NCBI GenBank assembly: GCA_963924555.1
Contig: OZ004584.1
Location: 3,843,001-3,907,000 of the forward strand
DNA: 64,000 nt
Direction: 5' to 3'
Source: Crambe crambe
Lineage: Eukaryota; Porifera; Demospongiae; Poecilosclerida; Crambeidae
Part shown: piece by piece, positions 36,001 through 61,539 of the stretch
Layout of the letters: the number at the start of each line of letters is the position of its first letter
Position numbering within the stretch: the stretch's first letter is position 1
Translations under genes and position numbers: made by a program
Notes under the pieces: generated by a model
What the model was told of the DNA's origin: nothing
Database searches by the model: none
Seen by the model: only the letters and a program-made list of their open reading frames with translations

Positions 36001-39000
36001 GAGCACCTTGAGTCAACAGTCTAGGCTGTTGAATAACTACAAGCCATGATTAGCAAGGCGACTGGAAAGCCAAAAGCACCTAGAGAACGAAGCTGGCCTT
36101 CCATGGAAGTGAATATTCGAAACTCCAATCAGAGAGTGCTTACCAGAGAGTATAAATTCAGAAATCATTTCAGGAATTGACACCTAACTCTACCCTTCGA
36201 ATTGAGTGTGCACTATTAAGACATTGCCTACCTAAGTCCATATAGCTAGCTACCAGTGCCGAGGCATTAGTCTTCTTAAAGACTAATTTGTTATCTACAA
36301 AGCTGGCTTAATTCATGTAGTTTGCTACTATGGGGCAGGAATATTGTAAACACCAGATTCCCCTGTATGGGGATGCATTGAATAGGCTACAAGTTTAATG
36401 ACTAACCTTCCTTCCCATCATTATCTAGATCTCCAGCATTAGCAATGGAAGAACCATATCGATCACCTTCTACTTGTCCTTCAATAATGAGAGGATTTGT
36501 ATCATTGAGAGATCCCTATACATATGGAGAACATTTAGTGGTGACTGAAACACTGAGAATCATACAGCCTTGGTTGATACGCAAGTGATATATCATCTTC
36601 AAATACCAGAATCCTACTAGTCATAATTTCTAACCATGCATGGTACAAGTAGGAATTATTTCACTGCACACACACACACTGACTGAATGATTCATACCCC
36701 AGTATTGAAATATATGTAGATCCTGCCACGATCTGGCACAAGCTTCGGAGTGTATGTGGTGTATATTGGTGCTCCAACAATAAGCTCATCATAACTGCAG
36801 TAAATGATCACATTTTAACTTCTTTGTGTGCTGCATAATAATTATTGGACTTACCCATCACCTGTAAGGTCGCAAAGAGCCATTGAATAACCAAAGAATT
36901 CTCCCAACTGCATAATTCACATACAAACAACATGTCTACCATCTGTATGCACACAATAGATACACTTTTCTATTTGCTGCCAAAGTACACATAGGTACTG
37001 TAGAAAAGTATCAGTCAGCATATGTACACATTATTTTACGAGGTGTGTGTATATGAATTATATTTTAGTACCTGTGTTCCCATTATGGTGATACTAGCAA
37101 GTAAACGAGCGAGATTATGGTTGTAAAAGAAAACCATTCCTGTATATGATGTACCATTGTGACGAGGAGAGGTGATAACCACATCTAAGAGAATAATGAT
37201 AATACCTAATTATGGGGATCCCACACAGCAACACGTACTCCCTACTAGCTTACAGACTCAAATCATGAGTACAAGCCACATATAATCAAAGACCATAATA
37301 TAGTGTATAGAAATCATAAACTTACTTGGTGGAGGTTCTGATCTGTCATTATTTGTTACGTAGCCAGCTGCCATACTGTGACCTAAAACACACAAGAAGT
37401 ACTAGTCTATTATGGTAAGACCTACATACATAGCTTTGAAACCAGGGAATTTCCTAGGTACCAGCAAAGTCATAATAGTATTTTTTTTTTTTTTGGATTC
37501 AGCTAGATCCTTTACCTCCTGGACTACAGTGCTATCTCTTACCAAAGGTTTGCTCGAATGAACCAGAAGGTACTGGAGGGTCTACTGGAGGGCTGAAAGG
37601 TGTTTGTGAACCAATAATAGAACGTGAATAAACACTTCCTGTAAATTCATTTCTTCCTGGGGTACCAACGAAAACTTTATCACCCTGTGTGTGTAGAAAG
37701 ATTCAGAAAATAGGACAAAACCATGAAACTACACAGGCATGTAAATCCTGTACAAAATTAAAACCACTCCAGCATGATTATTAGGTATCCACACGCACAG
37801 GTTATAAGTGAGATGCACTCACATTGTTGTGTGAGTCAATGATTACATGTACGTATGTAGAATCATATAGACTAGCCACAGTGTGCAAAAAAATAATAAG
37901 AGTTTCAGTTTGATAGGACATTTTGTCCGACCAAATATAACTTTTATCAGACATTATAGCAATTTTGCTGGTCATTTATCATAGTGACTACTTGAATTTG
38001 TTCTGACAGAATGTCTGAATAAAGTTGGAATTGTCTGGCCAAAGAGAAAAAATGGTAGGAAAATGGCCAGTGGCCAGCAGTAATACTGCACACTGGCTCA
38101 ACCTGCACCTACAGATAATCTGCGGCAATCACATTTTGCATTTGAAATTGCATGCTATTGGGCTGGTTTTTAAGCTATACTCTTCTTCTCTAGCAATTTC
38201 AGTGAGGCACCTTGCTTGATGCTTACTGTAGTCTTTGGTCCCTTGCTTGTTGGTTTCTTTGCTGGCCTAGGCTTACTGCAGTCTCTGGACCTCGTTTCAC
38301 TGGTCTAGCTAGATTTACTGTGCCTTGAATCTACATAGCAACTTTGAACTGTATTTCTAGGTATTTCTTCCCCTTTCTTGGACTCTTAGAGCTTAGAGCG
38401 TCAAGGTTCATTGCTGACGAGCCCAAACCAATTTGCACTTGCCATGCAATGAGTGATATGCATGCACATACATAGCAATTGACCTTTGAACCAGTCTAGC
38501 ATACCGTATAGCCAGAAACATTGGCGGAAAATTTAATTTGGCAGTTTGGCGGTTGAAGACTCAACCACCAAAATTAATTCCGCAATAGTAAAGTTTTTAC
38601 ATCGGTATGGTAAAGGTTGTCAACATTACAAATCCGAAAATAACACCAATATTTCCAGCCATACGGTATTAATATATGTACAAGGAGATAACAAGGTAGT
38701 TAGGAGGATAAGTTGACTATGTAGTTCTCCCAAAAATTAATGATTACTAGTACCCTAGATTATTATAATTATACAGAATGAATTTTGCTGACTTACAGCA
38801 ATAGTAGCACCATATCCTGTTATGCAGTAACCATCGTTTTCAGTAGCACCATTATCACCCGACACTGTGTGTATCAAGTGTACATGTTAAGAATAGCTTC
38901 TGTAGTACGTACATTAAATGCACGAAATTGCATGGCCCTGTATCTACATTGATCCACAAAAATGCCACTCCAAAATTTATCATGCTGTGTACAATACACA

Positions 39001-42000
39001 AGGGATGATGCAGACTATAGGGGAGAGAGGAAATAGTAAGTGGACTCACATATGCATGGTAACAGTGTTTGAAAGTTTCTCAATTGTCTGTCACCAACAT
39101 AGCATATACCACGAGGTTGAGCTGCATCATTAAGTACATTGAAATCAGTTGTCACCCAGAGAGGAGCACAAGCCTGGATAGGATATGGTAGATTGCCCAA
39201 TACATAATGTACATACTGAAACTTTTCATACAAGAGACAGTAAGTGATGAATGGTCCAAGATTACATATTGACCCAGATGCATAATCCAATTCTTAACAC
39301 CTTCCCTAATTGAGCTAATTGCATATGGTTACAAGATCTCTGTGACTGCTATTTTTTTAGTATTGCACCAGTTTGAATCTAAATGTATTTGCTGGTACAC
39401 AATTACTGTTTAATAACAGGGACTAAACAGAATTATTCAATAACCCCATTTATTGATTGCTCTCACTTGAGGGGGTAAAAGATTTACAGCCCAGATCATA
39501 ATCATATGTTACCAGGGTTTCATCTAAGGAGGGGGGGGGGGGGGGCAGGGGAAGCTTCCCCCCCCCAAACAGCTCAACTTCCCCCTCAAACTTCCCCCCC
39601 CCCCCAGGTATTATAGGCTACTCCCTTTGGTGACCACAGGTTGTTACATGTAGCCACCAAAGGGAGTAATTAAGGACCAATTTGGAGTAGTAAGCATTTT
39701 TGGCTTTGCACTTTGCGCAGGAGGGGGCACATCCCCCTCCCGCACTGTGGCCTATGGCCATGCAATCGGTGAGCTTTCCCCCCCCCCCCCAAGGCGAAAT
39801 TCCTAGATGAAACCCTGGTTACTCAATAATGGTCAGCCATTTCATTACAAATAAGTAGTTCTAGCCCTGTTTCTACTAACCAATATGTAGTCTTGAGTGC
39901 TGTGAAGAAAAGAACCAAGAAGTTGATTTCTTTTCTCTTCAAATGGCTCTATTACATTGATGTTGTTGATTAAAGTATTAGCTGCAGAAAATCATGTAAT
40001 ATTATATCATTAGTTTGTTCTTTCATGCTTAAATCCATTACAATCAGTGACAGTGCTCTCTATGTAGGGATGACCACCCTCCATAGGATTAGTACAAATT
40101 GGAAAATTGCTTACACTGTATTTTATGCACATTCTTATCATGCAGGAGAGTCTTGGAGGCTGAAAGACTCAACATGGAAGAATAATAAAAGCACACTTTA
40201 TCATGATACTCTTAATTACCGTAATTTGGGAAATTTTCGACTCTAAAATTTTTTCGTGTGTTTTATTTTCGTGTTGAAAATTTTTCGTTGTTGACTCCAC
40301 CCATGAAAATTATATCACGTGCTATAGCACGCTTATACACTTAACTTACGCTCGAAGCCATGGCACTAGAGACTTGTGAAAGACCCTTGTGCATTAGAGG
40401 CTACCACATCTACAAAGAGATCTGGACAGCAGCCATAGGAGAAGTCCTTCCCTGTGAAAGAGAACCCACAAACCCTGAGGATAGGTATGCTGTGGCTGTC
40501 AAGAAGGATGATATAATAGTTGGCCATCTACCAAGGAAAGTATCTCGCATATGCACACTTTTCTTAAGGAGAGGAGGCTCTATTACCTGCACAGTTGCTG
40601 GAAGCCGGAGATACTCTCAAGATTTACCCCAGGGAGGCTTGGAGATTCCATGTGATGTTAAATTTGAAGGCAAGTCCAAGGAAATTCAAAAAGTCAAACA
40701 TTTATTTAAGAAGACTAAAGTAAAATCATTGTAAATCATGAATTAGCTAAGTAAATTACAACGTATCAAACAACATGGGAAATAATATTAAGCAGCAATA
40801 GGCTCAGTCTTCATCATTAGAACTTGCTGTGACTTCTTCAGGATCACTGTCACTGGCTGAGTCAGAAAACTCTGATAGAGAATGAAATTCTGCATCTTCT
40901 GGCTCTTGTTCATCCAGAGCATGGCTGATTCCAGAACAAATGAATCCACTGGTAATAAATTGAGGGTTGTCGCTGATGTAGTGAAACATTTCAACAAGCC
41001 ATTCTGCTCCAAGCTCCTTCAAAAGTGGTAGTCCAAGATTGATTGGTTCAAGATCACCTTCATCATCAAGTTGTTCTATAACCTTATCAGCATACCAGTT
41101 TTCAAATTTCTTCTTGATAAATTCCTTACCTGGCTTATTTACAGTAAGGTCCATAGGCTGTAGGAGGTCGGTGGTGTTTGGGGGAAGAAGACACACATGG
41201 ATATTATTGGAATCTAAAAGCTGGTTAACAGAATCAGTGACCTGTCCTTTGAAGTTGTCCATTATAACAATTGCTGCCTTCTCATCCTCATCCTCCTCCT
41301 CCCTCAGTTCTTGTCGTTTCGTCTTGATATATGGTATAATAATCTCTTCGATGTACTCCAGCATCGTTGTTTCCGTGGACCAGTGTTTTGGAGAGTGAGT
41401 AATGTTCCAGTCTGATGGAAACTTGTATCGAGGGTGACAGCGAGCTGTTTTGCCTTTATAAATCAATTGTACTGGAAGAAAATCACCAACTAAGCTTCCA
41501 CAAAAGACACCTGTTATTTGTCTTTTATCATTTGTGCCAATCATCTCCACTCTTCTTGCTCCCTGCTGATCCATTGTCCATGGAGAACAGGGCACAATCC
41601 GGATACCTGTCTGATCCCAGTTAAGTATCAGTTCAGGTGGGACTTCTTCCATAGTAGCAACAGTAACGACCTCATCAAGGAATGATTTTTTCACCCGATC
41701 AAAATCATCCACGGTGTATTTGCTCTTCGCCGTTGTTGCCTTCCTTCGTACAAACTTCATGCGATTCAAAAGAGCATAAGCCCAGTGCCTACTAAGATGC
41801 ACAGGCCCACCAAACTCATCAAGGCTCATCCTATTATACTTCAGCAGTAGCCCTCTAGCTGCTGCTATGGCTATACCAGCTGACACTGTCTCTCCTGCTT
41901 CCCGTACTTTTCTTAGGTAAAGCTGTACCTTCTCATCCAGAGCATCTCCCAGTAGAAGTGGTCTGCCACGCTTCTTCTCAGGAAGAGCTTCTATGTCTTC

Positions 42001-45000
42001 TAAATCTTCAACTCTTTTCCTTTTAGCTTCAATCAGGTAGCTATCTCGAATTGATCGAGCCGTACTTTCACTCACTTTCTTCTTTAACTTCCTTGAGAAG
42101 TGCCTCGCTGTTGCTGCTACTCCATGATAGCTGGCATACTTTCCTATTTCAGCTCGAAGCTCCGCGCTAAACTTATCAGATATCGTGGTATACCGTATAG
42201 TTCAATTTATCTAATAATTCGTCGTTTAATAATTTTCATTGGGAAATATTTTCATTGTAGATTTATTTTCAAGGGAAAAAAATTCGTTGATACAAGTGCC
42301 CCACAAAAAAATTTTAACAGCGAAAATTTCCCAAATTACGGTATAACGGCAGTTTGTTCACTCAGAAAAAACTGCTTTCTTAGTTTTATACAAAGAAGCC
42401 ATTACGCACATGCATATATAGCCATGGAGGTCAGAACAGAAGTTAATTTAGTAGCTATGCATATGGCTGTAATGAACTTTGAATGGTAAGTAACGCTCAA
42501 GCTCATGCTGCCCATGAGATGTGCATAAGTAGTATACTTAGTACATACTGTATGATTGTGTGAATTTTTGGTTTTCTATAGTTCTGAATCTACAATGTGC
42601 AACATTTGACAGTAAGCAAGTGGCAGGCAGCTAAAAGCTGTTAGGTTATATAAATACATGATAAATTGGGGAATATTTTCATCGTCGTGTTCAACAATGA
42701 AAATTATAACAGTATAAGAGCTAATTAGTCCCAATTTAGGTATCTCCACATGAACTGCCTAAAGTGACCAAGCAAACTATGCATGGCACATGGTGTCATG
42801 ACCATTCCTCACCAGACATATTATACATACATAATAATTAAGTCAAAAATTAATATCGACATGAATGTCTCTGAGAACTTACGAGCTTGATCAAACAGTC
42901 GTCCCTCTGTTATGTCAGGATTAAAAGCTTGACTAAAAGAAATAAGATCTAGTTGCACTCCATTAGTTATGTTGGCATTAACATCAGGACCAATATAGAT
43001 GGTGGTGTTTCCCCTGACTCCTTCACACATGTCTGAACCTGCAGAAGGGCAACTGTAGACTAAACCAGTACGGTTTTCGTGTGGTTTAGCAGGATCAGTC
43101 AGACTCAGTCCTCCAGGATATGTTCCTCTAGGAGCACCAACAATCAATCTAAAGTGTATGGTAGACATGTGGACATGATAAAATGTACTCACTGGAATAG
43201 TCAAAGAGAGTAAGTGATTTAAATTCACTGCATTAGTCAGGGAGTCAAACAGTCAGTGAGTGCTTTAAATTCACTGCATTAGTCAGGGAGTTAAAGAGTC
43301 AGTGAGTGATTTAAACTCATTGCATTAGTCAGGGAGTCAAACAGACAGTGAGTGCTTTAAACTCATTACATTAGTCAGGGAGTCAAACAGACAGTGAGTG
43401 ATTTAAATTCACTGCATCATATTACTCACGGTATTACTCAATAAAAGAAACTCACTGTATTACTCAGGAAGAAATCTAAACTCATTGTACTAATAAGGAA
43501 GCAGGGGCGGATTCAGGGAAGGTTCGACATAGTTCGTCTGAACCCCCCTTTTTTACTATATTTTATAGACTATAAGATCTGAAGAACGCCGACAGTTAGC
43601 CTCTCTCAGACTCTGCCTACTTAGCATAGTATAAGACTACTTATAACTTTTGCTTGATCGATCGATCGTACTATTCTAATTAACACACGCTCACGTGTAC
43701 AAAACATTAGTGTCCGTTGATAACCTGTAGATCAGCCAGCCAGCCATACTTTCGTAGTCTTAGAAACTGAGATGAGTTATTACCTAGCCATGATCTATAA
43801 ATAAGTCGTAGCTCAGCTCAGGTTGAGGCATTTAATATCTAAACCACCATTGTTTTAACATTTTTAATGTTTCAAATGTTAAGCCACTGTTACTGTTTAC
43901 AGCAAACGTCAGAAAACCATCACAGACCAAGCCCTGAGTCCCATAATCATCCTGATTCATCTTCTCAACCTGCTATTCATAGTGACCCTGTCACTGCCCT
44001 TGTCTCTCCCACATCTACTCAGTGTGTAAGTGCTAACTTTACCGACAAAGGGGCGTGGTTACGTAAAGTGGGCGCGTTCCAAAATTTTCGCTCAGAAAGA
44101 ACCCCCCATCTTATTTTTCTAGATCCATCCCTGGGAAGAGATGAAAACTCACTGCATTAGTCAGGGAGTGATTCAGGGGAAGTTGAGCTAAGAAAAACTC
44201 ACTGAATTATTCAGGGGGCAACCTATATCATTAGTGAGGGAGTGGTTTAAGCTCACTCTAGCTCAGGGAGTGATTTAAATATGAAGTCAGGGATTGATCT
44301 AAACTTACTACATTATTCATGCAGGAAGTAACTGCAGTAAGGTGCCTAGGTACATGGCACAAAGAATATAAAGAATGTTGCATTACACAACCCTTAAGTT
44401 ATACTATTGTGGCTCCGAAAATACATAGGGTATGTATGTATTTACTACAAACTGACAACATGGATGCTTGCATGTGGTCATGCACTGTTTCTCCACTTCT
44501 GGGTTACTCATTTTCTAGCCTACCATATGGTTGTTCAGTATACATAGGTTTACCATGCAAGGTTTACTACAAACTGACAACATGGATGCTTGCATGTGGT
44601 CATGCACTGTTTCTCCAGTTCTGGGTTACTCATTTTCTAGCCTACCATATGGTTGTTCAGTATACATAGGTTTACCGTGCAAGGTTTCACAAAAATGAGC
44701 CTGAACATGGGGCTGAAGCATTTATACAGGCAGCAATCAATCAAACATCTTTGAGTTGCTATAATAATCTTCTGAAGGGAATAGCTATACTTTTGGAGAT
44801 TCCATCGCTGTCAAATCTAACTGAAGTATACTCTGAATGATTTTGAACTTTGACCCAGGTACTGATTTTCACACTGTAGCTGAGGAAAACACAACTGAAA
44901 GATAATGCTGTGAGATTTATCGTGCCAAATCAACGCACACAGAGTGTAGATAAAGGCAGTGTTATCATAAACATACTGCAATACATGCACATAATAATGG

Positions 45001-48219: not shown

Positions 48220-48357
48220 CTTCGATGTCTCCAGCTAGCTACGATACACGTACACCCTTTGATCGCGTAAATTCAAATTTTTGAACGAACCCCGCCCACG
48301 CTTGGATTATTCGCGCGTGTACGCACGTGCGCTAGGCCCGGCCATGTGGCAAGTTCG
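48220..48357. promoter_or_regulatory. Short divergent promoter shared by integrin B and TEX10
   Basis: The start codons of integrin B (minus) and TEX10 (plus) are 138 bp apart, so both 5'UTRs and core promoters must lie here or overlap. The interval is CpG-rich for this AT-rich window. It holds a GC-box-like CCCCGCCCAC near 48292 and alternating CGCGCGTGTACGCACGTGCG near 48312-48331. No clear TATA box is visible. Divergent placement is seen; co-regulation is inference. Confidence 0.6.
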
Positions 48358-51300
48358 ATGCCTTCTCACAGAGCCAAGAAGGGGCAGGGAAAACGTTCCA
48401 AGCTCAAAGTGCAGTCAGATTTCCAGAAAAGAAAGAAGAAATTAGGGAAGGGAAAGCAAGTTCCTGAAAATGCAACAAGAATCAGCTTCAAGAGTAAAAG
48501 TATTGTGGTTCCTACCCAATTGGAAGACTCTGCTATAGAGGGTCCCACCACACACAGGAAACAGAGTCTACAGGTTCGTTTTCCTGCTAGCCGCTCCGTT
48601 GTTATAGTTTGTAACCCATTTCTGTGGTGGTCAATAAAAGCAGGAAGCAGAGACCAGCCAGCTCATTTAGTGGTACAGCCATAGGTCTGGGAAAAGCCCT
48701 CCAGTTATTATTGATTCAGTTTCAATCTGGTATGATCTAGGCAATAACTTATAAATATGCTAAAGCTTAGCATAAAGCTAAGCTACCCTGTTACTTGTTT
48801 ATTATAATTATAGCCACAAATTAAATTGCTCCTTATAGTTAATTCCTTTAAATCATTACTGTGCCTTTTGCAGGTATTATTGACACAAATAAAGCACTAC
48901 AATTTATCCATTCGTCATGATGCTCTAATCGGGTTGAAAGAAATCCTCCAGAGATATCCAGAGCTAATTACACCCAACCTTCCAAGGCTTATCGAACAGA
49001 TATTTTCCACCATGGTTGATGCCTCAGCACTCGTCCGTCAAGCATCACATGCACTCATCAAAACCTTGATGCATTTGTTGAGCAATGATCTTATTCGTCC
49101 TTTCTTTCAGACTGTAGTGGCACATATGAATTGTGGATTAACACACATAAGTGAAAAAATTCAGCTAGATTCTTTGAAAGTACTTGAAATCTATTTGCAG
49201 TGTTATCCAAATTTACTGGTTAAACATATTGGAGAAATTTTGCCTATATTGATTGGTTTATTATCTCGGCAGAGGATATCGGGGTCTGATCCCAGAACAG
49301 AGTGTAAGAAGAAGAAGAAACGTTTGCTAAGTATCGTTCAGAAAGCAAGAAGTGTTTCCACAACATCCCTGGTTACTAATCCCGATAGCAAGTTAGTCAG
49401 CAAGAACTCACGGCGTGATGTGTTTGGCATGATTAGCAAGCTTTTGGATATCACATACCAATCTTCTATCGCTACTACATTTGTGAGTGATGCATTCCAA
49501 AACAAAGGAAAGTTCAATTTATTGGAAGCACTGGTTTCAGTTTTAAAGGAGAGTTGGATGGAGTGCAATCCTTCTGATATTCTGTATAGCAAATCACCGC
49601 CTATCCAGTATTTAATGATCATGGAAGACATCATTCACATCCTTAATACGTTATTGAAACTAATACTGAGAGTCTTGCCAACCACTGAAGAAGAGCAAGA
49701 GAGATTATCCATTGCTGATGTGTGTGATACGATATATAGTGATAACATTATGCCCATGGCAAGTAATTTCCCTTTCATGATAATCGCTCACTCTTCACAA
49801 GTTCAGTTCAAACAAATGGAGTATGACATGAATTTGGCATTCTGTCATGTGGTATTACTTCTCAAGAGTTTAGTGAAAGGCAGTGTGGATGATACCTGTG
49901 TGCACAGTGTTTTGAAATATCTTGGTGAACTTAACTCTGAGGATGTGATGTATATTACATCATCTTCTCAAATCCTTCAAACCTGCTCCAGTGTTTTTAT
50001 CGGTTTGATCCCTCTCTTGTGTGAACTCTCTCACAAAGGAATTGTACAAGATGAGGTGTTGATGGGAGCATTCCAATCCATAAGAAACTTTTATGAAGCA
50101 TGCCATCCACAGTCAAAGAGCGTGCAATTGTTAGTGAAGTGTTTCAGTGAGATATTTATTGGTGAACTGGCCAAGGGAGATCATGGGTGCAGGTTAGATC
50201 CATTAAGTAGCTTGAACCATGAAACTTTATTAGACTATGCAAGTAAGAGTGAATCTAGCAAGGCGTAATATGCTGCATCATTGTATAATTATTTTAAATT
50301 GTATATAATGTATGCTTTGCAGCTGTTTGGCTATGAGAGAATTATTTCTTCCTTGGTGCAACACATTGGTCAACTTGTTTATGGAACTGGTGGACTCAAG
50401 TCCTGACACGTCTTTAACTGTGATCGATTCCATTGCTCGTGCAGCTCTTTATGGGAACATGACTATCTTATCAATACTCCAAGGAAGGTTGCTGACCCTG
50501 TTTTGTAAGTTCACTATCACTCACTGAGACAGCAGGGAGTGATCTTATATTGGAGGTGGCCTCTAAATGAAGGGATAAACAAAAAGGACCAATACCCATT
50601 CAAAGGTGGTCTAATAAGGCAGTGGTTTTATAATCCAGGGACTATTGTAGAATTATTTGAAGTTTGGTCTACAATGTTTTTAGGTTGGCATAAACAATTT
50701 TGATTAAATCCTAATTTGTATACCGTATGGGTAGATATTTTCGAGGGATTAAAATTTCGTGAATACCAGTACCAAGCTAGATTATAAAAATTTCGAGGAA
50801 TTTAATTTCGCTTCGTGCGCGCGCAATATATCACGAGCGCAGTGCACACGTGGCAATCGTGAGCAGCTGGAAGGATGACCAGTTTTAGTTACCCTTCAAT
50901 GGTTAGGGGATTTCATGTCTATAGAGAAATTTGGGAAGCTGCAGAAGGCGAAGTGCTGCCATGCACCAGGGAGGTAAATAACTTACATGATCCTTTTTCA
51001 GTCGCTGTAAAGAAGGATTCTATTATAGTCGGGCATGTGCCAAGAAAAGTGTCGGCAATAATATGTTCTCTATTCCTAAGAAGGGGTGGATCAATCATGT
51101 GTCGTGTTACTGGAAGTAAGAGATATTCTGCTGACCTACCACAAGGTGGTCTTGAAATTCCTGCTATTTTAACTTTCACTGGAGATCCCACTCGAGTTGA
51201 AAAAATCAAAAATCTTTTGAAGGTAGTGACAGTAATGGAAGAAAAAAGTGATGTTAAGAATCCTGGAAATGATAATAGTGATGAAAATGAAAGCAAGAAG

Positions 51301-54300
51301 AGAAAAATTGATGATGTAGACACTAATAGTCAATGGGTTTCAATTGAAAGACTAACCTTGACCATAGGTGATAAACAGGACATTTTAGAAGGTTCGGAAC
51401 TTAATGATAAGCATGTAAATGCTGCTCAGCTACTCCTACATAAGCAGTACCCGTCTATCAGGGGATTATGCTCAACATTGAAACCCGAAGTAATGGTCGG
51501 AGGTTGGGTCAGAGGTTATGTCCAAATTTTCCATTCCCGAAGCAATCATTGGATAGTTGCTAGTACAATTGGATGTGAAGATGGAGAGGTTAATATCTAT
51601 GATTCTCTGTACACAGATGTCGATTCCACAATCAGAAGTAGTATAGAGAAGATTTTTGCACCATCAAAGTTAAAATTTACAGTACCCAACAGTCCTAAAC
51701 AGAAGGGAGCACGAGATTGTGGATTATTTTCTATTGCTATAGCAACATTTCTTGTACTTGGAAAAGATCCAAACACTATGAATTTTGATCAGAGCCAAAT
51801 GAGAGCTCATCTTATTTCTTGTTTCGATAAAGCAAATCTGACCAATTTTTCTTAACACTAGCTAGCTAGCTAGGTGTGTATAATTATTGTAAACCATAAT
51901 AATAAGTCATTCATTAAAGTCTATACCTACTTTAATATATCTACTATAGCTACCTGCAGCACGAAAACCATTGATGATAATGTCAGGCCTAGATGAAAGG
52001 TAGTCAAATAAATCAATTGTCCACTTAGCTACTAGAGGCTTCATCAAACTTAATCTCATGTCCACTTCTTCTTCAACCTTATCTTCTAATTGCTTGCAGA
52101 TAACATTTCCATACCATCCCTGAAACTTTTGCTTCATATAATCTTTGGCAGGTTTATTGACACTTAAATCCAAGGGTTGGAGTTTATCTGTAGTGTTAGC
52201 AGGAACAAGCACGTAAAAAATGTTGTTTTCTTGCAGTAGTGTAAAGATGTCTTCAGTGCATTGACCTTTAAAAACATCAAAAAGTATAAGAGCAGGATAG
52301 TCACTACTTAATTTCAGTTGTTTCCGAGTTTCTATAACATATGGTAATATAATATGCTTTATATACTCCTTCATCGTAATTTCATTCGACCAATGATTTT
52401 CTGAGCAAGTAATATGCCAACTTGGTGGAAAAGGAACATTCTTTGGTAGGCAACGTGAAGTTGTTCCTTTGTAGATCAACTGCATGGGAAGAAACTTTCC
52501 AGTCAATGAACAAGCAAAAACTGCAGTGATCTGACGTTTATCATCAATAGCTGCAATTTCTACACGCTTGGTCCCCTTTTTCTCCATAGTCCACGATGAA
52601 GATGGGACTATCTTCATGGCTGTCTGATCCCAATTCAAAATCAATGCTTCTGGAATCTCTTCCATAACTACTACTGATTTTATATCAATCAAAAACTGCT
52701 GCTTGATTGCTTTGAAGTCAGCAGAGAAAACTTTCAACTTTGAGTTGGCCCTTCTTTTTGTATAGCCCATTCTTCGTAGCACATTCTTGGCCCAGTCTTT
52801 AGTTAGACGAACCGTACCACCAAACTCCTCTAAAGACGCTTTATCATGCTTGAGCAGCACCCCCCTACCTATACCAGCAACAATGCTGGTTCCAATGGCT
52901 GCACCTCTACTTCTCATTAACTGAATTAGCTCTTTTAAGTAGCTGTCACATTTCTCACCTAATAGAGGAGGCCTACCACGTTTTTTTGTTGGCAGAGATG
53001 ATATAACTACTTCTTTCCCAGCTACAGCCATTTTGCTCTTCTTCTTAATTTCATCTTCATACAACCGTTTCCAGTCCCTCACAGAGCTATCTTTAACATT
53101 CTTGTCTTTGAACTTTCTCACAGATCTGGCCACGCCATGTTCAGAAGCATATTTTGCTATAGTTAGCTTGTCCTTTTGCGATATCTTCAGATATTCACCC
53201 CGTTTTTTCCCTTTTTCTTGCACTTTCCTGACCTGTTGGTTAACTTCTTTGACCGTTTCAGCTGGTACAGAAGATGATAGTGGCAGCGCAGCCGGCTTGA
53301 AATACTTGTAGAGAGCCATCTGGAGGTCAAAGCATAGATATAAGAGGTTTTACGGGATTGGAAACGCCCAATGAACTGCACAACCGAGGCGCGTTGACAG
53401 ATGCGCACGCGCATGCAGCATTAATTAATAATGGCCGTGAAAGGAGATCAATATTCACTCCTTTCAAGGCAGTTAAAGTGATGTTCTGCCCCTACAGCTC
53501 ACAGAATAGTACAAGTAAGCTAAGGGGAAGGTATTGAAGAAGTGAAGAGTCAGAGAGTTGAAGTTGGAGAGTCTGAGGAAGGAAGTTATTAATTATTCAT
53601 AACTTTTTTCCTTGTAATTATAACTATGAGTACCTATCATTGCTCATTATACATTAATTTTATGTGATTGATTTGAAAGAAAGGCCAGAATGACTTTTGG
53701 TATTAAAATTAGACATAAATTCATCATTATTATAGCTAGATAATTTTGCCCCAAAGTTATCTGCCAGTTTCTGCTCAGTTCTCCCTCATCAGCATTATTG
53801 CAATACTTCCAGCTTTTGGCTGTTGGATTTTGACACCATCCACCTCAAGAATTCGGCTCAGTCAGCTGTCCTGTGGACCCTATGGATATTAGGGGGGAAA
53901 TATAGTAAGCTTGCCATCTCCATAGGATGACTATTGTATAGAAAACGAATGCACCAATTCCATTTACTGTTCTATCCTTTCCCTGAAATAACTAATACAG
54001 TTGCAATATTGTTAATCTATTTCTTGGGAGAGGGATTACAGTTTTAACACCACTTGCAAATGCTAGAGACAATATATGTCAGCTAATACAAAAACCAACA
54101 TTACTATTCCATGTAGCTAAAGTTTACATGCCTTTTGATCAGAAAATGGGCAACAGCAATTGATTCTATCAAGCGTGAGAGGGATTATAGTCCCATTAAC
54201 CACTACAGTAGTATTTGTAGGATTAAACTTGAAAATCTGAGCTAAAATTTATTTCATACAGTAAATCTATGCCCTAGTGTATTATAGTATCATTGGCATA

Positions 54301-57300
54301 AGTCTTACCTCATGGATCTTGTCAGAACAGCAACTTTGACAAAAGTGCTATGTCATTCAGCTGTCAACGCGCCTCGGTTATTAGTTGCTAACGAGAGCAC
54401 GTGATCCGTTTCCAATCCCGTAAACCTCTTATATCTATGGTCAAAGTACTCCGTAATGACTAATGCGCATGCGCTAAATATCTAGGGCTATCGAGTAAAA
54501 ATTCCGTGAAATCATAAGTGACCGCGAAAATCACGAAATTAAAATCCCTCGAAAATATCTACCCATACGGTATGTACTTGTTGATCATTGAGCCCTTAGC
54601 AAACCCAAAACCTCAATGCTTTCATCTCCCTCCTCTCTCTCTCTCTCTCTAGCTCCTACAGTTACTTTCCTTTCCAAGCTTCCTGAGCTTACTCAGAGAA
54701 AAGTTGTGGAACTGATCTGGCACCTTCCCTCATTGAAGGGAATAGATCTGACACTTTTGAGTAGATGTGTCCTGTCTGGCGAGTTCAGTCTGCGTGTTAT
54801 GTTGTACATGGTTCAAATTATTCATCAAAAGTAAGAACCAGACTATAATTATGGAGAGGCTCACTCACTTACCTAATTTATTTTCAATCATCAGATTCAT
54901 GCGGGAGAGTTCAGCTGAATCAACGCTATCTTGCATTTCTCCTTATCTGAGCTTTATGCTGACACTCCTAGTAGGTGAGTCTCTGCTAACAAGAACAAAG
55001 ATAACCATCTGGATGGATTGGGAAGGGCAATGATAATGTTTGTGCCTAAACGTCGTAAATGCCAATGCAGGGCATCAGCTGAAGTGTCGAGGTCAAAGGG
55101 GGGGGGGGGCATGGGGTCCATGTAGATTTTGTCACTTAGCATGGAGGGGCTGGTCTTGTGGGTGAACGGGTACCAGTTAATAGGCCAAATCTAAGCCTAT
55201 GTACGTAGTTTAGCCAATACACTACTAGTTTGAAGCCCATGAAAACTCATAAAAATCTAGTAGACTTTTCATGTGTTGTACGCCATGAAACGTTAACTAG
55301 CCCATGAGAACTCGTGTAAAAATCTAGGGCCATGAAACATTAGCATGAGTGTATGTGAAAAAGAAATGAAAAGGCAATGAATAACCAATGAAAAATTATT
55401 TTGCATGTCATTTTCATGTCCTTTTCATGGCCACCATTGTATTTTCATGCTATTTTCAAAGTTTTCTTAGCAGTTATGGGGGAAGCAGGGTTTCATTTAG
55501 GATTATGCCCAAGTGGGCACAAAATGAAGGTTGAGCAAAATAAGGGGGCAAGCGTATCTGTGCACTTGCACGCGGAAAATTGTGACCTAACCACCCCCAC
55601 TTTTGCCTGGCCACACCCTTTTGGATAAACTGCTTGATGATATTAATTAACAATGACTCAATGGACATTACCTGCACATCATATCACCTATCAATATGTG
55701 TGCAGAGGAAGCTATACCAGCTCTAAGGACCTTCAGAGCTGGTACCTATTCCTGGAAATTCTGATTTATTCTTTGTAATGGCTCTTATCCTTGGGGGGCT
55801 CAGCCATGCTTATCTAACTAAGAATAGAAGGCTTGTTGTATTAACTATGTCATTTAGTTAAATCCCAAATGCCCACCCCAAATGAACCCTTGGGAGGATG
55901 TAGTGTTTACAACTAACAAAATTGTTATTCAACTGAACGACTAACTGACAAAAATCACAAGTAACTACAAAAATGCATTAAAGTGATCACTATAATTACA
56001 GAAGGAGAAGGGTTCCATAGATTGTATGTAATGGCCTACTACTTCTTAACTTCTTGCACATGCTCATTGTTGTCATATTGCACATGCTCAGTAACTAGTA
56101 GTCACAAAACAGTATCCATTTTTCATGATAGAACGAGTATTCGAGTCTTGAGTAACTTCATTTAAAAGCTAGTTCTACCCTTTCTCACGTCCAAGGACCT
56201 AGACGTGACAATTGGTGACCACTGTCAGGACTGAGCGGTGTAGCAGTTGATGTCAACTTGAGAACTGAAGTTGCTGGACTGTTTACAAACTAGAACCCGT
56301 TATGGCAAGTTATGTCTGAAAGGAAGCTTCACTTCATACTATGGTTACGGAGTTGGAAGCTCAGTTGGTCAGTGTTCATGCTACTGGAAAGGTATGTGCA
56401 AACCTAGCAAATACTACTTGTACAATTTCTCCATGTCCCTTCCTGTTTCAACAGCAGAGTGAGATATTTCATCTACTCTGACTGTAGCTTTGACTTGTGA
56501 GCCCCCCACAATCTCTGCCTCATTCTATGGGAACCCCTTCTACTGTTGTATTACTCTCACTATGATGCATGGTTACTGTGTAGTTGAGACACCACCCAAT
56601 GGACATCACTGCTGAAGTATGCCATCCACATTTGTCTGGTTTCTGTTGTCTGTAAACATTAACTGTTGTGATCACTGCTCTCATGTGCAAGTCATTGAGC
56701 TTCTTTCCATTTTGAACGACTTCTCCTTGACCCACCACTTGTATTCTGGTGACAGACATAGTTTCATAACTGACCATCAAAATACTGTGACTGGCTTGAT
56801 CTCCAGTTGCAAACAGTTGTAGAGTGCACATGCATACCTTCATCCTTATTTTTGGAGGTTCTTCATCACTGAAATCTGGGGGAAGTTTCTGCTTCATTGA
56901 TTCCATCTTGCTAGACTTGAGAGGAGAGCTTTGTGCACATAATATATCACAGCCAGCACACCATACAATGTGTATTGTGTCGGGCCCATACACCCTTAGG
57001 GTTCACCCCCTCTTCAGATGGTTATTTTCCCTCACAAAATGCTGAATGGAGTAAGAGAGACATAAGTGGTGAACAGCAGTGGCAGCAAGTTTTTATGATG
57101 AGCAGACAAATTGAAAGTGGAGTGATGTGGTTGGAGGTAGTAGTGATGATTCTGCTTGGTTCTATTTTCACTTTCCCCAAAGTTTTTGATTCTGGAGTGT
57201 TCTGGTGAAATGGCTCAAACATGGCTCGTATGATTATGTGCATTTTTGTTGTTAAATAATTATAGGATGTTAAGTGGATGAAAGTAAGTTAAATACTTCT

Positions 57301-60300
57301 TCTAATACTTTGCTACTGATGCTTGACAATCCTAACTAAGCCATTGACAAAGTTAGAAATCCTGGAAATTTCATAACCTACATTGGCTGAGCATGATCCT
57401 GTGTCATTTTATTACAGAACCCTAAAATGAAGAATACAACATTTCTAGGATTGTAATTGGCCAACTAGTAATTCAGAAGTATGCACCCTAGTCCTAGCCC
57501 TAACTCTATCCCTAGCCCTATCCCTAGCCCTGTGAGGTTGTACTCACTGATATGAGAGAACATTTGGGATTTAGAAGGTATGTTTAGGACTTTGAAGGTT
57601 GTCTTTGGAACATTTGGGAGTTTATCTTTGCAGAGAGATTATTTCTATTATCAGAAGGCCCTTTATCAGAGTTATATTTGTGTTTGCAGAGGGAGAAGGG
57701 AATTAACCAATAATAGAAATGACTACATTATTGTACAAGTAAAGGAAAAAATATATTTGTTTTAAAGAGAAGTAGCAATGGCTGTGTACGGTTCAAAAAA
57801 AGTTCAGCAGCAAGGGAGTGAACTTCATTGAGGTAACCCCGTTCCCATCACCAATATGCAATATTACCAAAACTACGAGCTAACTATTCCTACTTCACTC
57901 CCTTTATATCATCTTGGCCTGTCATGGGAGTGAAGTAGGAATAGTTGTAAGGTTTACTTGACTGAAGTTCGCTCCCTTGTTACTAAACTTTTTTGAACCG
58001 CACACAGCCATCTCTACTTCTCTTTTTTATTTAGAATATTTTTTCCTGCCTTTTTCGATAATGTATCTAGAATAATTATAGTCTCAGAGATACTCATTAC
58101 TTTGTAACTATTTGTTTATTTTATTATAGGCAGCTGGCTGCTGTGATCCTCCTATATATCCATCCCAAGTATGTATTGTAGCTATGTAGTTCATTGGAGG
58201 TTTCATCATATTGTGAGCCGAAATGAATCTGATCTGGAAGGATGAATGCTGATGGAGCTCGTATCTATACATTGTCATTGACCATAATTTCTAAAGGCAT
58301 TTACATTTACATGTACGTTGTGTACTTGATTAGTGTTGCATCAAGGTTTGATTCATAACCAACTATTTTTTGAGTTAAAGGTAGTGTGGTATAAAAATCA
58401 TTTGAATGAACCATTTCTGAAATAATGACGTGAAAGATGATGAACGACCAGATGAAAACGGCGATCTTAGAAATCGCTGTAAATGACACTGGGCTCTAGT
58501 GAGCGTGGTGAACATGAGATAGCCTTGTTCCCAGGCCTTCCTCTCTATCTCATGAAGTAAAAGTATTGTGCAGGAGGAAAAGAAGAAGAGGAAATTAATT
58601 GGTAGTGGGCATAATGGAACTGTACCATGACAATGAATGCACATTAGTAGAGCTGCATACACTCTTAAGTTGCCCTTCTCTCGGGGAGTCACTCCTGCTC
58701 AAAACAGTCGAGGATAAACTGTCAATGACTCTTATCTATGGTAGTTTGTTGCAGACTAGCCTACACTGGCTGTAGTAAGCTAGCTAGCTAGCTACTAAGG
58801 CTTTATTATGACTGGACTGTAGCAGGAATTGCAGTCTCAAGCTAAACTCTGCCAGGAGAATGATCCAACTGGATAGTAGTACTGAAGAATGGATTGAATA
58901 TGATCGCCCAAACTGTAGTTAGTGCGCATGATCACGTACATGGGCAGTGCAGAGCATTTACATCGACACTGCCCACCAATTAAGTCCTACCTCCTTTCTA
59001 CCCTCATGTGATAACTTCCTCTCTCTTTCTTCTTTTACTTCCTCTCTCTTTCTTCTTTTCCTCCTGCTCAATACTTTAACTGGGAACGAGGAACGAGGTT
59101 AAGTATGTGGCTTTGATTCAACTTTGATTGTTTACACTACTTGTACAGGTCATTATTGGTTCCCTGTGACAAGGGGTGTAGTAGATAGGATAATGTACAA
59201 TTGAAAGAGAAACCTTAAATCTAATAGATAGTGATAACTGGCTGGGAATCAGGGCGGCAAGTTTTTTGGCACACTGAAAGTTGTTGAAATGTACTCTTGT
59301 GATATCAGGAAGTCAGTCAGTGGAAACATACTTTTAAAACAAATGTAGAGTAATGTACGTGTATAGGGATGGCTGTAATGGAACAAGGATGGGATACAGA
59401 GTGCTAGTGCACTCTCTGATAACACCTGCTCCTAAAAGGCCTAGTACTTGTGTCAGTGTTCTGAAACAATGTGAAAGTTCCATCTTCCCTAATACTCTCT
59501 GATAACACCTGCTCCTAAAAGGCCTAGTACTTGTGTCAGTGTTCTGAAACAATGTGAAAGTTCCATCTTCCCTAATGTGCATAGTAGGGTATGTCATCAT
59601 TCAATTCCTCTATGTCATAAATATCATCTTGTGCACTCATTTTGAATCAAGTTCCACGCTTCACAATCGGCTGATCTTCACTCAGTGGAATCTCCCCCTC
59701 CCTTTTAAAAAGCTGAAGAGCTGCATTTGGGCCTGTGATTGCTCTAATTGTTCGGGTTTTATCTTGACTTTGAATATTAAGTCTTGGGGAGTCAAGTCAT
59801 AACCAGTGGTTGGTTGATGCTTTAGTGCTTAATATTTTGGCCTGACAAAGACTTGTGATAACTCTATTTCTTGTTTATTTTATATTGAAGGTTATAACAA
59901 GGATCAGACACCATCCAGACCTGATGCAGGAATGTTAGTAAGAAAGTATTTTTACCTGTGAGTGTTATACATAAGTTCCTGTGATTTTCTGTTGTAGAGA
60001 TCAAGACACGAATCAATCTTGGATTGCCGTCACTCAGAAACATAACCTCAATATCTGTGCAGAGGATTATATTGAAATCCATAAGGTAAAGGGTTAGCTA
60101 TAATGATGCTCCATTGTAACATGGTATATAGTGTACAATATGATTTTATATTATGTGCCATAATCTAGATATGGTCAACAAAATTAATGGTACCACTTCA
60201 GTATCCTTTATGCAGCGAGCGAGCACAGCAAGCAAGCTGACTTTCAGGTCATGACTCATTGAAATTGTAAATATATATATCTATGTCTACACTCCAAAAT

Positions 60301-61539
60301 GCCCCAGACATATGTACTTGGCACAGCGAGCAAGCTGACTCTCAGGTCATGACTCATTGAAGTTATAAATATATATGTCTATGTCTACACTCCAAAATGC
60401 CCCTGGTAGTGAGAGCTTGATTTTAGGCGCTTGGCTTATCTAAGTGTTTGTGGTAAGCATTTACAGCTTTCTATGTATGGAGCTTTCAGGTTGGAACCAC
60501 TAATGACTCTGTCTCTGACAGCAATATCAAGCACTGGAGACTATCAGCTACTTTACTTACTTGCTTACTGTCAAATGCAGCACATTGCTATAGTAGTAGT
60601 TGTAGAGGCTCTACAGTCTTATCTAAGTGCTTTGTTACATATAAACTAAACAACATAATCTTCTAAAGAGTTGAAGCACTGCTTGCTCGCTCGCTGTCAA
60701 ATGTTGCACTAGTTATTACTGAAGTTATTTTTGTTAGCTAGATTGTGTGTGAATGTCTGATGTCCAGCTCCATATCTTCCTGTGTCCTGCTGTGTTTAGA
60801 AAAGGCACTGCTTGAATTGATGGTATGTTAAGTAATTATACATCAAAGACAACCACAGTACTCCATACTCTGAAATCATTGCCTTTTGGGAAGGATTCTA
60901 TTCCTTTAGAAACCACTATATTTACCATACATGTACCCTTTGTATTATGGATAAGCAATTTCGTAGGAAAAAAAACATTGACAGTTTTCTTGTTCAGCTA
61001 TTTTAATGAAGTTATCACTTGTGGGTTGTGACGTATCCTGCCCACGCATGATTGCTAGTGAGATTAACTCCAGAACTACTAGCAGCAGAGACAAAGTACT
61101 ACCGTACTCACGCATTATTAGGCGTATGTGCTTATATCTCCACAGGAAGCAAACCACCGCTTAACGAGTATGCGCCTAATAGCGAGATGGATAATTTAAT
61201 TTTGGTGGGCATTAATTAGAGTACCGCATGAAGCGGGCGTGAAGAACCAGCAGTAAGTGGCAGTTCCGTGCAGAAACACACTTTTAAGTGAGGTAAGCTT
61301 AGCAAAGAGTTGCTAAACCAGTAAGAAAACGAAGATAAGCAGAAGTAAGGAGCACTCAACAAAGGGTAGTTAGTGCAGCAAGAAAACTAGCGCCTAACAA
61401 TGAATGTGCGCTTATTAACGAGATGCGCCTAATAACGCGCGAGTACGGTATAGGACTAGAACATGTAACAAGAATGAAGGGATAAGATTTCATGACCATT
61501 TTATTTTCAATACTTCAGATGACATGCCTCGATCTATAA
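48358..61539 (+). CDS. TEX10: TEX10 / Ipi1-like ribosome-biogenesis protein (exons 1-5 firm, 6-9 tentative)
   Basis: TEX10 works in the nucleus with PELP1, WDR18, LAS1L, NOL9 and SENP3 in ITS2 processing of the 60S subunit. Exons: 48358-48573, 48874-50242, 50340-50504, 54653-54830, 54895-54974; tentative 59891-59933, 59998-60085, 60742-60822, 61519-61539. Phases agree throughout (746 residues plus stop; human about 929). The N-terminus is basic (MPSHRAKKGQGKRSKLK, DFQKRKKKLGKGK), then come armadillo/HEAT-like helices with LTQIKHYNLSIRHDALIGLK and ISEKIQLDSLKVLEIYLQCYP, matching human TEX10. Exon 4 (VELIWHLPSLKGIDLTLLSR) matches human LVQLVYFLPSLPADLLSRLSR. The first ATG in good context is 48358. 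The exon 3 acceptor is uncertain: phase forces 50340 rather than the nearer AG at 50322. Intron 3 carries a HIRAN transposon and intron 5 is full of repeats. The short C-terminus is the weak part. Confidence 0.85.
50505..50721. other. TEX10 intron 3, part left of the transposon
   Basis: Starts with a consensus GTAAGT donor at 50505. No other feature seen before the transposon begins at 50722. Confidence 0.6.
50875..51855 (+). CDS. HIRAN domain fused to Ulp1/SENP-like C48 cysteine peptidase
   Basis: A 326-residue intact ORF. Residues 11-103 are a HIRAN domain (RGFHVYREIW, EVLPCTREVNNLHDPFSVA, IIVGHVPRKVS). Residues 120-150 form an acidic linker with a KKRK nuclear-signal-like motif. Residues about 175-320 are a Ulp1-type peptidase of the kind common in transposons: LNDKHVNAAQLLLHKQYPSI, then His225 (SNHWIVAS), Asp243 (IYDSLY), Gln276 and Cys282 (PKQKGARDCGLFSIA), the complete set expected of the family. 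C48 enzymes cleave SUMO or similar conjugates. It is transcribed toward the transposase gene. Substrate and role in transposition are unknown. The ATG at 50875 is the first in the ORF, about 150 bp inside the left end. Confidence 0.9.
   Translation: MTSFSYPSMVRGFHVYREIWEAAEGEVLPCTREVNNLHDPFSVAVKKDSIIVGHVPRKVSAIICSLFLRRGGSIMCRVTGSKRYSADLPQGGLEIPAILTFTGDPTRVEKIKNLLKVVTVMEEKSDVKNPGNDNSDENESKKRKIDDVDTNSQWVSIERLTLTIGDKQDILEGSELNDKHVNAAQLLLHKQYPSIRGLCSTLKPEVMVGGWVRGYVQIFHSRSNHWIVASTIGCEDGEVNIYDSLYTDVDSTIRSSIEKIFAPSKLKFTVPNSPKQKGARDCGLFSIAIATFLVLGKDPNTMNFDQSQMRAHLISCFDKANLTNFS
51907..53319 (-). CDS. pogo/Tigger-like DD35D transposase (large HIRAN element)
   Basis: A 470-residue intact ORF starting with ATG (MALYKYFKPAALP). 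Residues 48-90 look like an N-terminal helix-turn-helix (KLTIAKYASEHGVARSVRKF). An AT-hook-like KKRGRPP is at 112-118. The catalytic core has Asp231 (NWDQT), Asp348 (LFDVF) and Asp384 (QPLDL), spacing DD35D. Conserved stretches DDKRQITAVFACSLTGKFLP and NHWSNEITMKEYI align with the small-element transposase. The last residues (SYSRYIKVGIDFNE) differ and may be read-through into non-conserved sequence. A nested element begins 14 bp upstream of the ATG and probably separates the gene from its promoter. Confidence 0.9.
   Translation of the reverse strand: MALYKYFKPAALPLSSSVPAETVKEVNQQVRKVQEKGKKRGEYLKISQKDKLTIAKYASEHGVARSVRKFKDKNVKDSSVRDWKRLYEDEIKKKSKMAVAGKEVVISSLPTKKRGRPPLLGEKCDSYLKELIQLMRSRGAAIGTSIVAGIGRGVLLKHDKASLEEFGGTVRLTKDWAKNVLRRMGYTKRRANSKLKVFSADFKAIKQQFLIDIKSVVVMEEIPEALILNWDQTAMKIVPSSSWTMEKKGTKRVEIAAIDDKRQITAVFACSLTGKFLPMQLIYKGTTSRCLPKNVPFPPSWHITCSENHWSNEITMKEYIKHIILPYVIETRKQLKLSSDYPALILFDVFKGQCTEDIFTLLQENNIFYVLVPANTTDKLQPLDLSVNKPAKDYMKQKFQGWYGNVICKQLEDKVEEEVDMRLSLMKPLVAKWTIDLFDYLSSRPDIIINGFRAAGSYSRYIKVGIDFNE
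53333..54438. mobile_element. Nested non-autonomous element with 8-bp target duplication
   Basis: The termini are inverted repeats beginning CATAGATATAAGAGGTTT and containing GGGATTGGAAACG. The element is flanked by the 8-bp direct repeat GGTCAAAG (53325-53332, 54439-54446). It is 1.1 kb with no convincing ORF. An 8-bp duplication fits the hAT or P superfamilies. It lies inside the large HIRAN transposon, so it is younger. A sister is at 8423-9636. Confidence 0.85.
55486..55892. mobile_element. CAGGG-ended element, about 407 bp
   Basis: The left end CAGGGTTTCATTTAGG and the right end CCCCAAATGAACCCTTG are imperfect inverted repeats. Flanks GGAAG and GGAGG differ by one base, consistent with a decayed 5-bp duplication. 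Confidence 0.6.
57764..58027. mobile_element. MITE with about 70-bp inverted repeats
   Basis: The left arm AAGAGAAGTAG...GGCTGTGTACGGTTCAAAAA and AGCAAGGGAGTGAACTTCA is inverted at 57953-58027. A second small inverted pair (GGAGTGAAGTAGGAATAGTT) lies inside. A one-armed relative is at 16985. Confidence 0.8.
58170..58500. repeat. Dispersed repeat, copy 2 (partner 17090-17400)
   Basis: Collinear with the integrin A intron 1 copy over about 330 bp, with many indels. In both places it follows the GGCTGTGT...GGTTCAAAA sequence, so the two form one family. Confidence 0.7.
59411..59576. repeat. 83-bp tandem duplication
   Basis: Two essentially identical units starting ACTCTCTGATAACACCTGCT, 83 bp apart. 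They inflate a minus frame (59334-59600) that is not a gene. Confidence 0.9.
60211..60711. repeat. GCGAGCGAG-edged repeat, full copy in reverse
   Basis: Read on the minus strand it follows the family order: AGTGCAACATTTGACAGCGA, CTTTAGAAGATT, the AAAGCTGTAAATGCTTACCA block, GGGGCATTTTGGAGTGTAGA and TTCAATGAGTCATGACCTGA. The right-hand end block is present twice. It lies in tentative intron 7 of TEX10. Confidence 0.75.
61102..61448. mobile_element. 347-bp MITE with CCGTA termini
   Basis: Inverted ends start CCGTACTCRCGCRTTATTAG and extend for about 30 bp with mismatches, flanked by TA. A further CGCCTAATAACG-type block repeats inside. No ORF. It lies in the tentative last intron of TEX10. Confidence 0.75.

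Follow-up and report, generated by a model that had tools for sequence, protein, structure and literature searches.

In the genome of the sponge Crambe crambe, two diverged transposable elements of the pogo type both carry, in addition to a transposase of the DD35D class, a convergent gene encoding a HIRAN domain. They were found in positions 3,843,001 to 3,907,000 of contig OZ004584.1 (assembly GCA_963924555.1), a stretch of 64,000 nucleotides that is referred to here as the window and whose own coordinates are used throughout. Judged by its sequence features, element 1 is a pogo-superfamily DD35D element with no family assignment and with an extra HIRAN gene. In element 1 the HIRAN domain is fused to a Peptidase_C48 (C48) domain, while in element 2 it stands alone. 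HIRAN appears to be an old, selected part of the element, with C48 gained or lost inside the lineage.

Two elements with one gene plan

The terminal inverted repeats (TIRs) of element 1 have arms of 43 nt that are 95% complementary, with TA at 50721-50722 and 54571-54572, either side of the body. With up to 3 mismatches allowed, the window has exactly two copies of the outer 25 bases, and 100 shuffles have none. Two convergent open reading frames (ORFs), 51 bp apart, lie between the ends. The transposase matches Pfam DDE_1 with E 2.8e-12, its triad consisting of D231, D348, and D384; the 35 residues between the last two make it DD35D. When the nested insertion described below and one copy of its 7 bp duplication are removed, the element is approximately 2734 bp, with the two genes making up approximately 88% of this length.

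A preliminary description, made from the letters of this sequence, had proposed CCGTA inverted ends with TA duplications, an intact DD35D transposase, and an intact HIRAN-C48 gene converging on it, and each of these has been borne out, the HIRAN part through the copy in element 2 and through structure matches. Of the limits that it gave, 50722 to 54570, the end is correct and the start is one base off, since the body begins at 50723.

The TIRs of element 2 are of the same design, with CCGTA followed by a GG-containing block and an ATTTTCG block, and have arms of 42 nt with 88% complementarity. Its HIRAN gene (Pfam E 1e-6, 28.9 bits, above the cut-off) and transposase (DDE_1 E 8.5e-15) are convergent and 69 bp apart, which leaves no space for a C48 domain. 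The alignable part of this transposase begins near 42190, as judged by eye, and the N-terminal part seems to have been lost there, which would suggest that this transposase copy is 5'-truncated and that element 2 is probably decayed. The transposases of the two elements are 46% identical over 356 aa by BLASTP (44% in the full alignment) and the HIRAN parts are 59-63% identical.

The order of CCGTA TIR, HIRAN gene, convergent transposase, and CCGTA TIR is common to both elements, as are the DDE_1-type transposase, the DDD triad (DD35D), the TIRs, and the TA duplication by which pogo elements are recognized. HIRAN is therefore present in 2/2 and C48 in 1/2 of the transposase elements in the window, where a tblastn search with the four proteins at E 0.01 returned nothing beyond the two HIRANs and the two transposases. 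The preliminary description had suggested a pogo lineage with both accessories; the link with HIRAN stands, being present in both elements, and C48 falls outside the recurring unit. It had also set against itself the case of transposase copies that are never linked to HIRAN, and in the sole other copy, that of element 2, the transposase is linked to HIRAN, the two genes converging and being enclosed by CCGTA ends.

Table 1. Features of elements 1 and 2 and of related sequences in the window
Feature	Position	Strand	Details
Element 1 body	50723..54570	.	TA-flanked, 3848 bp including nested 1107 bp insertion
Left terminal inverted repeat, element 1	50720..50762	+	43 nt, with flanking bases
Right terminal inverted repeat, element 1	54531..54573	-	pairs with left arm
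HIRAN-C48 accessory gene, element 1	50875..51855	+	326 aa
Transposase gene, element 1	51907..53319	-	470 aa, DDE_1, DD35D
Nested insertion in element 1	53333..54439	.	1107 bp, inverted ends CATAGATATAAGAGG, GTCAAAG directly outside both ends
Element 2 body	40219..42341	.	TA-flanked, 2123 bp, TIRs starting CCGTAATTTGGG
HIRAN-only gene, element 2	40360..40734	+	124 aa
Transposase frame, element 2	40804..42201	-	465 codons stop to stop, DD35D
MITE-like sequence, TACCGTA ends	38502..38668	.	167 bp, 25 nt arm identity 80%
MITE-like sequence, TACCGTA ends	61100..61450	.	351 bp, 25 nt arm identity 92%

Selection on the HIRAN gene

Between the two elements the proportion of synonymous differences (pS) in the HIRAN gene is 0.81, which is saturated, and that of nonsynonymous differences (pN) is 0.27, over 113 codons. 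The corresponding values for the transposase are pS 0.84 and pN 0.38 over 407 codons. With the synonymous sites saturated, a dN/dS value cannot be given. In this pair of elements constraint on HIRAN has been no weaker than on the transposase throughout a long divergence. That 59-63% identity remains in the HIRAN parts despite saturation of the synonymous sites indicates that HIRAN has been kept by selection, which speaks against it being passenger DNA.

The HIRAN fold

A structure model of the HIRAN part of the element 1 protein has a mean predicted local distance difference test score (pLDDT) of 80.6 in the model that was kept, with two of the five models being poor (37.7 and 34.8). The 17 PDB chains that rank first against this model all belong either to the HIRAN domain of human HLTF (13 chains) or to bacterial lp_0118 (4 chains), a protein that we take to be of the HIRAN type, the PDB listing naming no domain; from rank 18 onward all matches have E >0.2. 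The query-normalised template modelling scores are 0.65-0.69 with 12 HLTF crystal chains, 0.60 with the HLTF NMR model, and 0.51-0.54 with lp_0118. The model of the full-length HIRAN-C48 protein is poor (pLDDT 43.3), with residues 117-326 below 50, and returns, via its HIRAN part, the identical 17 leading matches. The predicted structure thus supports a HIRAN fold in the element 1 protein. When the element 2 HIRAN is used to search PDB sequences the matches are to HLTF chains only, 5 sequences with E 0.22-0.31.

The C48 domain of element 1

HIRAN lies within residues 1-120 of the accessory protein, with the Pfam match at 21-81, and C48 lies in the second half, with the Pfam match at 219-310. 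Peptidase_C48 is matched by the whole protein with E 1.1e-5 and 25.9 bits, and by the second half searched alone with 27.6 bits, the cut-off being 20.7. Located by motif, the His-Asp-Gln-Cys set is complete, with H225, D243, Q276, and C282, to which we presumptively assign their roles in a C48 active site. A search of PDB sequences with the C48 half aligns the Gln and the Cys with those of the Ulp1-like protease 6dg4, with an E of 0.41 that is not significant, and the whole protein gives this one protease at E 0.78. A portal protein matched by the C48 half in the PDB sequence search at E 0.67 was rejected as unrelated. The linker between the domains has a KKRK run that resembles a nuclear signal, as seen by eye. 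Neither protein of element 1 is matched in NCBIfam.

The Pfam match and the motif residues are what the C48 assignment is drawn from, and deSUMOylation, the activity proposed in the preliminary description, is a prediction from this evidence.

The nested insertion

The sequence inserted in element 1 is a separate, non-autonomous element. Its inverted repeats are in three pieces, in which 53333-53403 pairs with 54358-54439, and the GTCAAAG at its flanks is a 7 bp duplication, or one of 8 bp if the shared G is counted. No ORF of at least 80 aa was found within 53333-54439. It lies upstream of the transposase ATG of element 1, 13 bp from it, so that the transposase ORF is intact and its leader or promoter is interrupted. 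This copy of element 1 may therefore have lost normal expression of its transposase. A reading of this non-coding right-end stretch of approximately 1 kb as a part of element 1 was rejected, given the inverted ends and the GTCAAAG duplication.

The surrounding sequence

There are 10 TACCGTA sites in the window, against a mean of 2.1 and a maximum of 5 in 50 simulated sequences, and 8 of the 10 are the ends of elements 1 and 2 and of two sequences resembling miniature inverted-repeat transposable elements (MITEs). Transposases of this lineage may have moved both of these sequences, at 38502-38668 and 61100-61450. The sequence 42191-42343 was also considered as a complete MITE and was rejected, its 25 nt ends being 48% alike, as against 92% for 40217-42343.

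Before element 1 is a frame at 48826-50265 resembling Ipi1/TEX10 (Ipi1_N E 9.8e-15), and after it is an open, exon-like stretch at 54655-54834, a candidate further exon of the Ipi1/TEX10-like gene. Element 1 seems to be inside an intron of that gene. The frame 48271-48681 has no Pfam match. Two similar minus-strand frames, 42824-43252 and 15772-16122, contain APRGTYPGGL and TGLVYSCP and by eye resemble integrin-alpha exons; neither has a Pfam match at E 0.1. Related repeats of 40-300 nt, both direct and inverted, are dense at 26000-35500 and 60220-60620, and the pair 26821-27120 and 31655-31954 is 100% identical.

Searches for relatives

Relatives were sought in collections of prokaryote and viral DNA. 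Pattern scans with the transposase alignment gave 47 stretches in prokaryote contigs and 31 in viral contigs, and a scan of viral contigs with the HIRAN alignment gave 68, with no relative by tblastn in any of these. Motif scans gave 6, 0, 9, and 0 stretches in viral contigs and at least 119 in prokaryote contigs. When the four proteins were compared by tblastn with 125 of these loci (the 6 viral ones and 119 of those in prokaryote contigs) the best E was 0.017, and with the 9 further viral loci it was 0.33. HIRAN-C48 has no tblastn match at E 0.01 in 50,697 phage records. As the collections are of prokaryote and viral DNA, the missing matches say little about animals. A query with Pfam HIRAN detects the domain in the one bacterial genome searched and, among 14 control genomes, in 1, which shows only that HIRAN exists in bacteria. 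Searched against PDB sequences, the transposase gave two cyclodiphosphate synthase matches (E 0.37 and 0.51), which were taken as chance.

HIRAN is not mentioned in the main texts of the pogo surveys PMC7386202 and PMC7325037 or of the Passer paper PMC9976928. No literature linking HIRAN with pogo transposons or with Repbase was found in a search confined to papers, mainly open-access ones, and no element of this kind is among the titles and abstract openings listed for HIRAN with transposons, transposases, or Ulp1.

A possible role for HIRAN and the alternatives

Cut-and-paste transposases leave 3'-OH ends, which are held in a tight post-cleavage complex. In the elements described here, the transposase would bind the CCGTA-type ends and cut at the flanking TA, leaving 3'-OH transposon ends, and the small HIRAN protein would most likely sit on these 3' ends in the post-cleavage complex. 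There it could shield the ends from, or compete with, host HIRAN translocases of the HLTF/Rad5 type, which strip proteins off cut ends, and the delay in end clearance would let integration finish. In the case of element 1, the fused C48 would be brought to the cut ends, where it may act on the transposase or on repair factors and free them of SUMO or a similar modifier. Some copy of the lineage may be mobile at present.

It is tentatively suggested, then, that this is a pogo DD35D lineage in which HIRAN is an old, selected gene that likely binds cut 3' ends and shields them against host translocases. The HIRAN of HLTF binds 3'-OH single-stranded DNA ends, and HLTF strips Cas9 from cut DNA via its HIRAN, with the isolated HIRAN domain inhibiting this removal (PMC11237066). 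Proteases of the Ulp1 or OTU kind are found repeatedly in other transposons, and it has been suggested that they act in transposition or steer repair (PMC2836005).

Several observations weigh against this suggestion. The sample in which HIRAN recurs is the smallest possible, two copies in one window, and no relatives were found across the prokaryote and viral collections scanned. The HIRAN match of element 1 in Pfam (E 6.2e-4, 20 bits) is under the cut-off of 24.7 bits, a weak match that is strengthened by the element 2 copy being above the cut-off and by the structure matches. A two-row HIRAN profile has 0 matches in PDB sequences at E <=1, a translocase domain is absent from both HIRAN proteins, and the C48 half of the structure model has pLDDT <50. 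For the pocket, we take D94 of HLTF to be one of its residues and take the exact register of the alignment as presumed. Compared by eye, N91 and D94 are retained in both elements and N90 in element 1 only, the N90-N91 pair reading NN there and TN in element 2. At the position of Y72 both elements have I, and at that of Y93 element 1 has H and element 2 has E. Y72, Y93, N90, and N91 are named as HLTF pocket residues in published work (PMC4666394, PMC11237066). Binding of 3' ends by the element HIRAN is thus a plausible prediction.

The same recurrence and selection data are also compatible with a regulatory function, in which HIRAN would control the transposase, for example by inhibition or by tethering to replication forks, and SUMO-dependent silencing by the host would be cleared by C48. 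The HIRAN of HLTF is required for the reversal of replication forks (PMC4666394), and C48 is joined in element 1 to a domain of DNA-binding type by the linker with the KKRK run. An interaction of HIRAN with the transposase has no evidence, however, and the presence of HIRAN alone in element 2 makes a SUMO-related core function unlikely; regulation is considered an unlikely explanation overall, if one to be taken seriously. Far less can be said for chance capture, by which one element acquired a HIRAN-C48 gene of the host that it now carries as passenger DNA. DNA transposons do capture host sequences, and C48 is in only one of the two elements, but HIRAN is constrained, has the same position and direction in element 2 at a synonymous divergence that is saturated, and, with the nested insertion set aside, the two genes fill approximately 88% of element 1. 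This makes capture by chance very improbable.

Another possibility concerns novelty alone and is compatible with either functional interpretation: that the lineage is already known, being unpublished or in Repbase only, and is common in early-branching animals. This is quite possible, although less likely than not. Small HIRAN-like proteins are present in invertebrate gene sets, to be set against the absence of HIRAN from the main texts of the pogo surveys and the Passer paper and the lack, among the papers searched, of any that pairs it with pogo or Repbase.

If HIRAN does shield cut 3' ends, a selected second gene with a 3'-end-binding fold would give the pogo group a dedicated end-handling factor, and the handling of cut ends by transposons against host repair would become testable. 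The natural fusion of HIRAN to a protease might also become a tool with which modified proteins could be acted on where DNA is broken. It is a rather improbable extension of this that throughout a pogo lineage HIRAN is an obligatory 3'-end escort, competing after excision with the HLTF/Rad5 end clearance of the host, to which escort some members have added a C48 that rewrites SUMO or ubiquitin-like modifications; if true, this would be a transposon-encoded modifier protease targeted to sites of breakage.

Comparison with known elements

The element HIRAN has a fold and sequence profile in common with the HIRAN of HLTF/Rad5 and with standalone bacterial HIRAN. It differs from HLTF/Rad5 in that it is transposon-encoded, has no SWI/SNF or RING domain, and does not conserve the pocket tyrosines, as judged by eye.

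For the pogo group most descriptions are of elements with a transposase and no other gene, extra genes being known in a few relatives, such as the ciliate elements TBE and Tec. Among DD35D pogo elements, Passer resembles elements 1 and 2 in its transposase of 400-500 aa, DD35D, TA duplication, and total length of 1.6-4.0 kb, a range shared by both (PMC9976928, PMC7386202). Passer has a single ORF (PMC9976928), in contrast to the two genes of each element here, and its TIRs are mostly <30 bp, as against 42-43 nt. Its domain set is BrkDBD with HTH_Tnp_Tc5, or HTH_Tnp_Tc5 alone. In Pfam searches BrkDBD was undetected in either transposase, and HTH_Tnp_Tc5, the candidate here for the HTH/CENP-B-type DNA-binding domain that pogo transposases have upstream of the DDE domain, has no match in that of element 1 and a sub-threshold one in that of element 2 (E 0.069, 13.6 bits, cut-off 22.2).

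Fot and Fot-like pogo elements are similar to those described here in DD35D and in TIRs that are 40-60 bp in most (PMC7386202). Fot-like elements mostly have TA duplications, as here, unlike most Fot elements, which have TAA (PMC7386202), and members of the Fot1 group come mainly from fungi (PMC7325037). The description of Fot and Fot-like elements in PMC7386202 mentions neither HIRAN nor C48, which are present in the elements here.

The ciliate TBE and Tec are Tc1/mariner-type elements with three ORFs, and so have genes beside the transposase as elements 1 and 2 do, the extra gene encoding a zinc-finger protein in TBE and a site-specific recombinase in Tec (PMC7325037). They differ in being DD34E, in their ciliate hosts, and in that neither HIRAN nor C48 is named for them in that source (PMC7325037).

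A C48/Ulp1 protease is encoded by Ginger1, Mutator, Crypton, NeSL, and Utopia (PMC2836005, PMC3212892, PMC4640811), as it is by element 1, although the transposition enzymes of all of these differ from that of element 1. Ginger1 carries its protease as a fusion with the transposase, whereas that of element 1 is joined to HIRAN and encoded by a separate, convergent gene.

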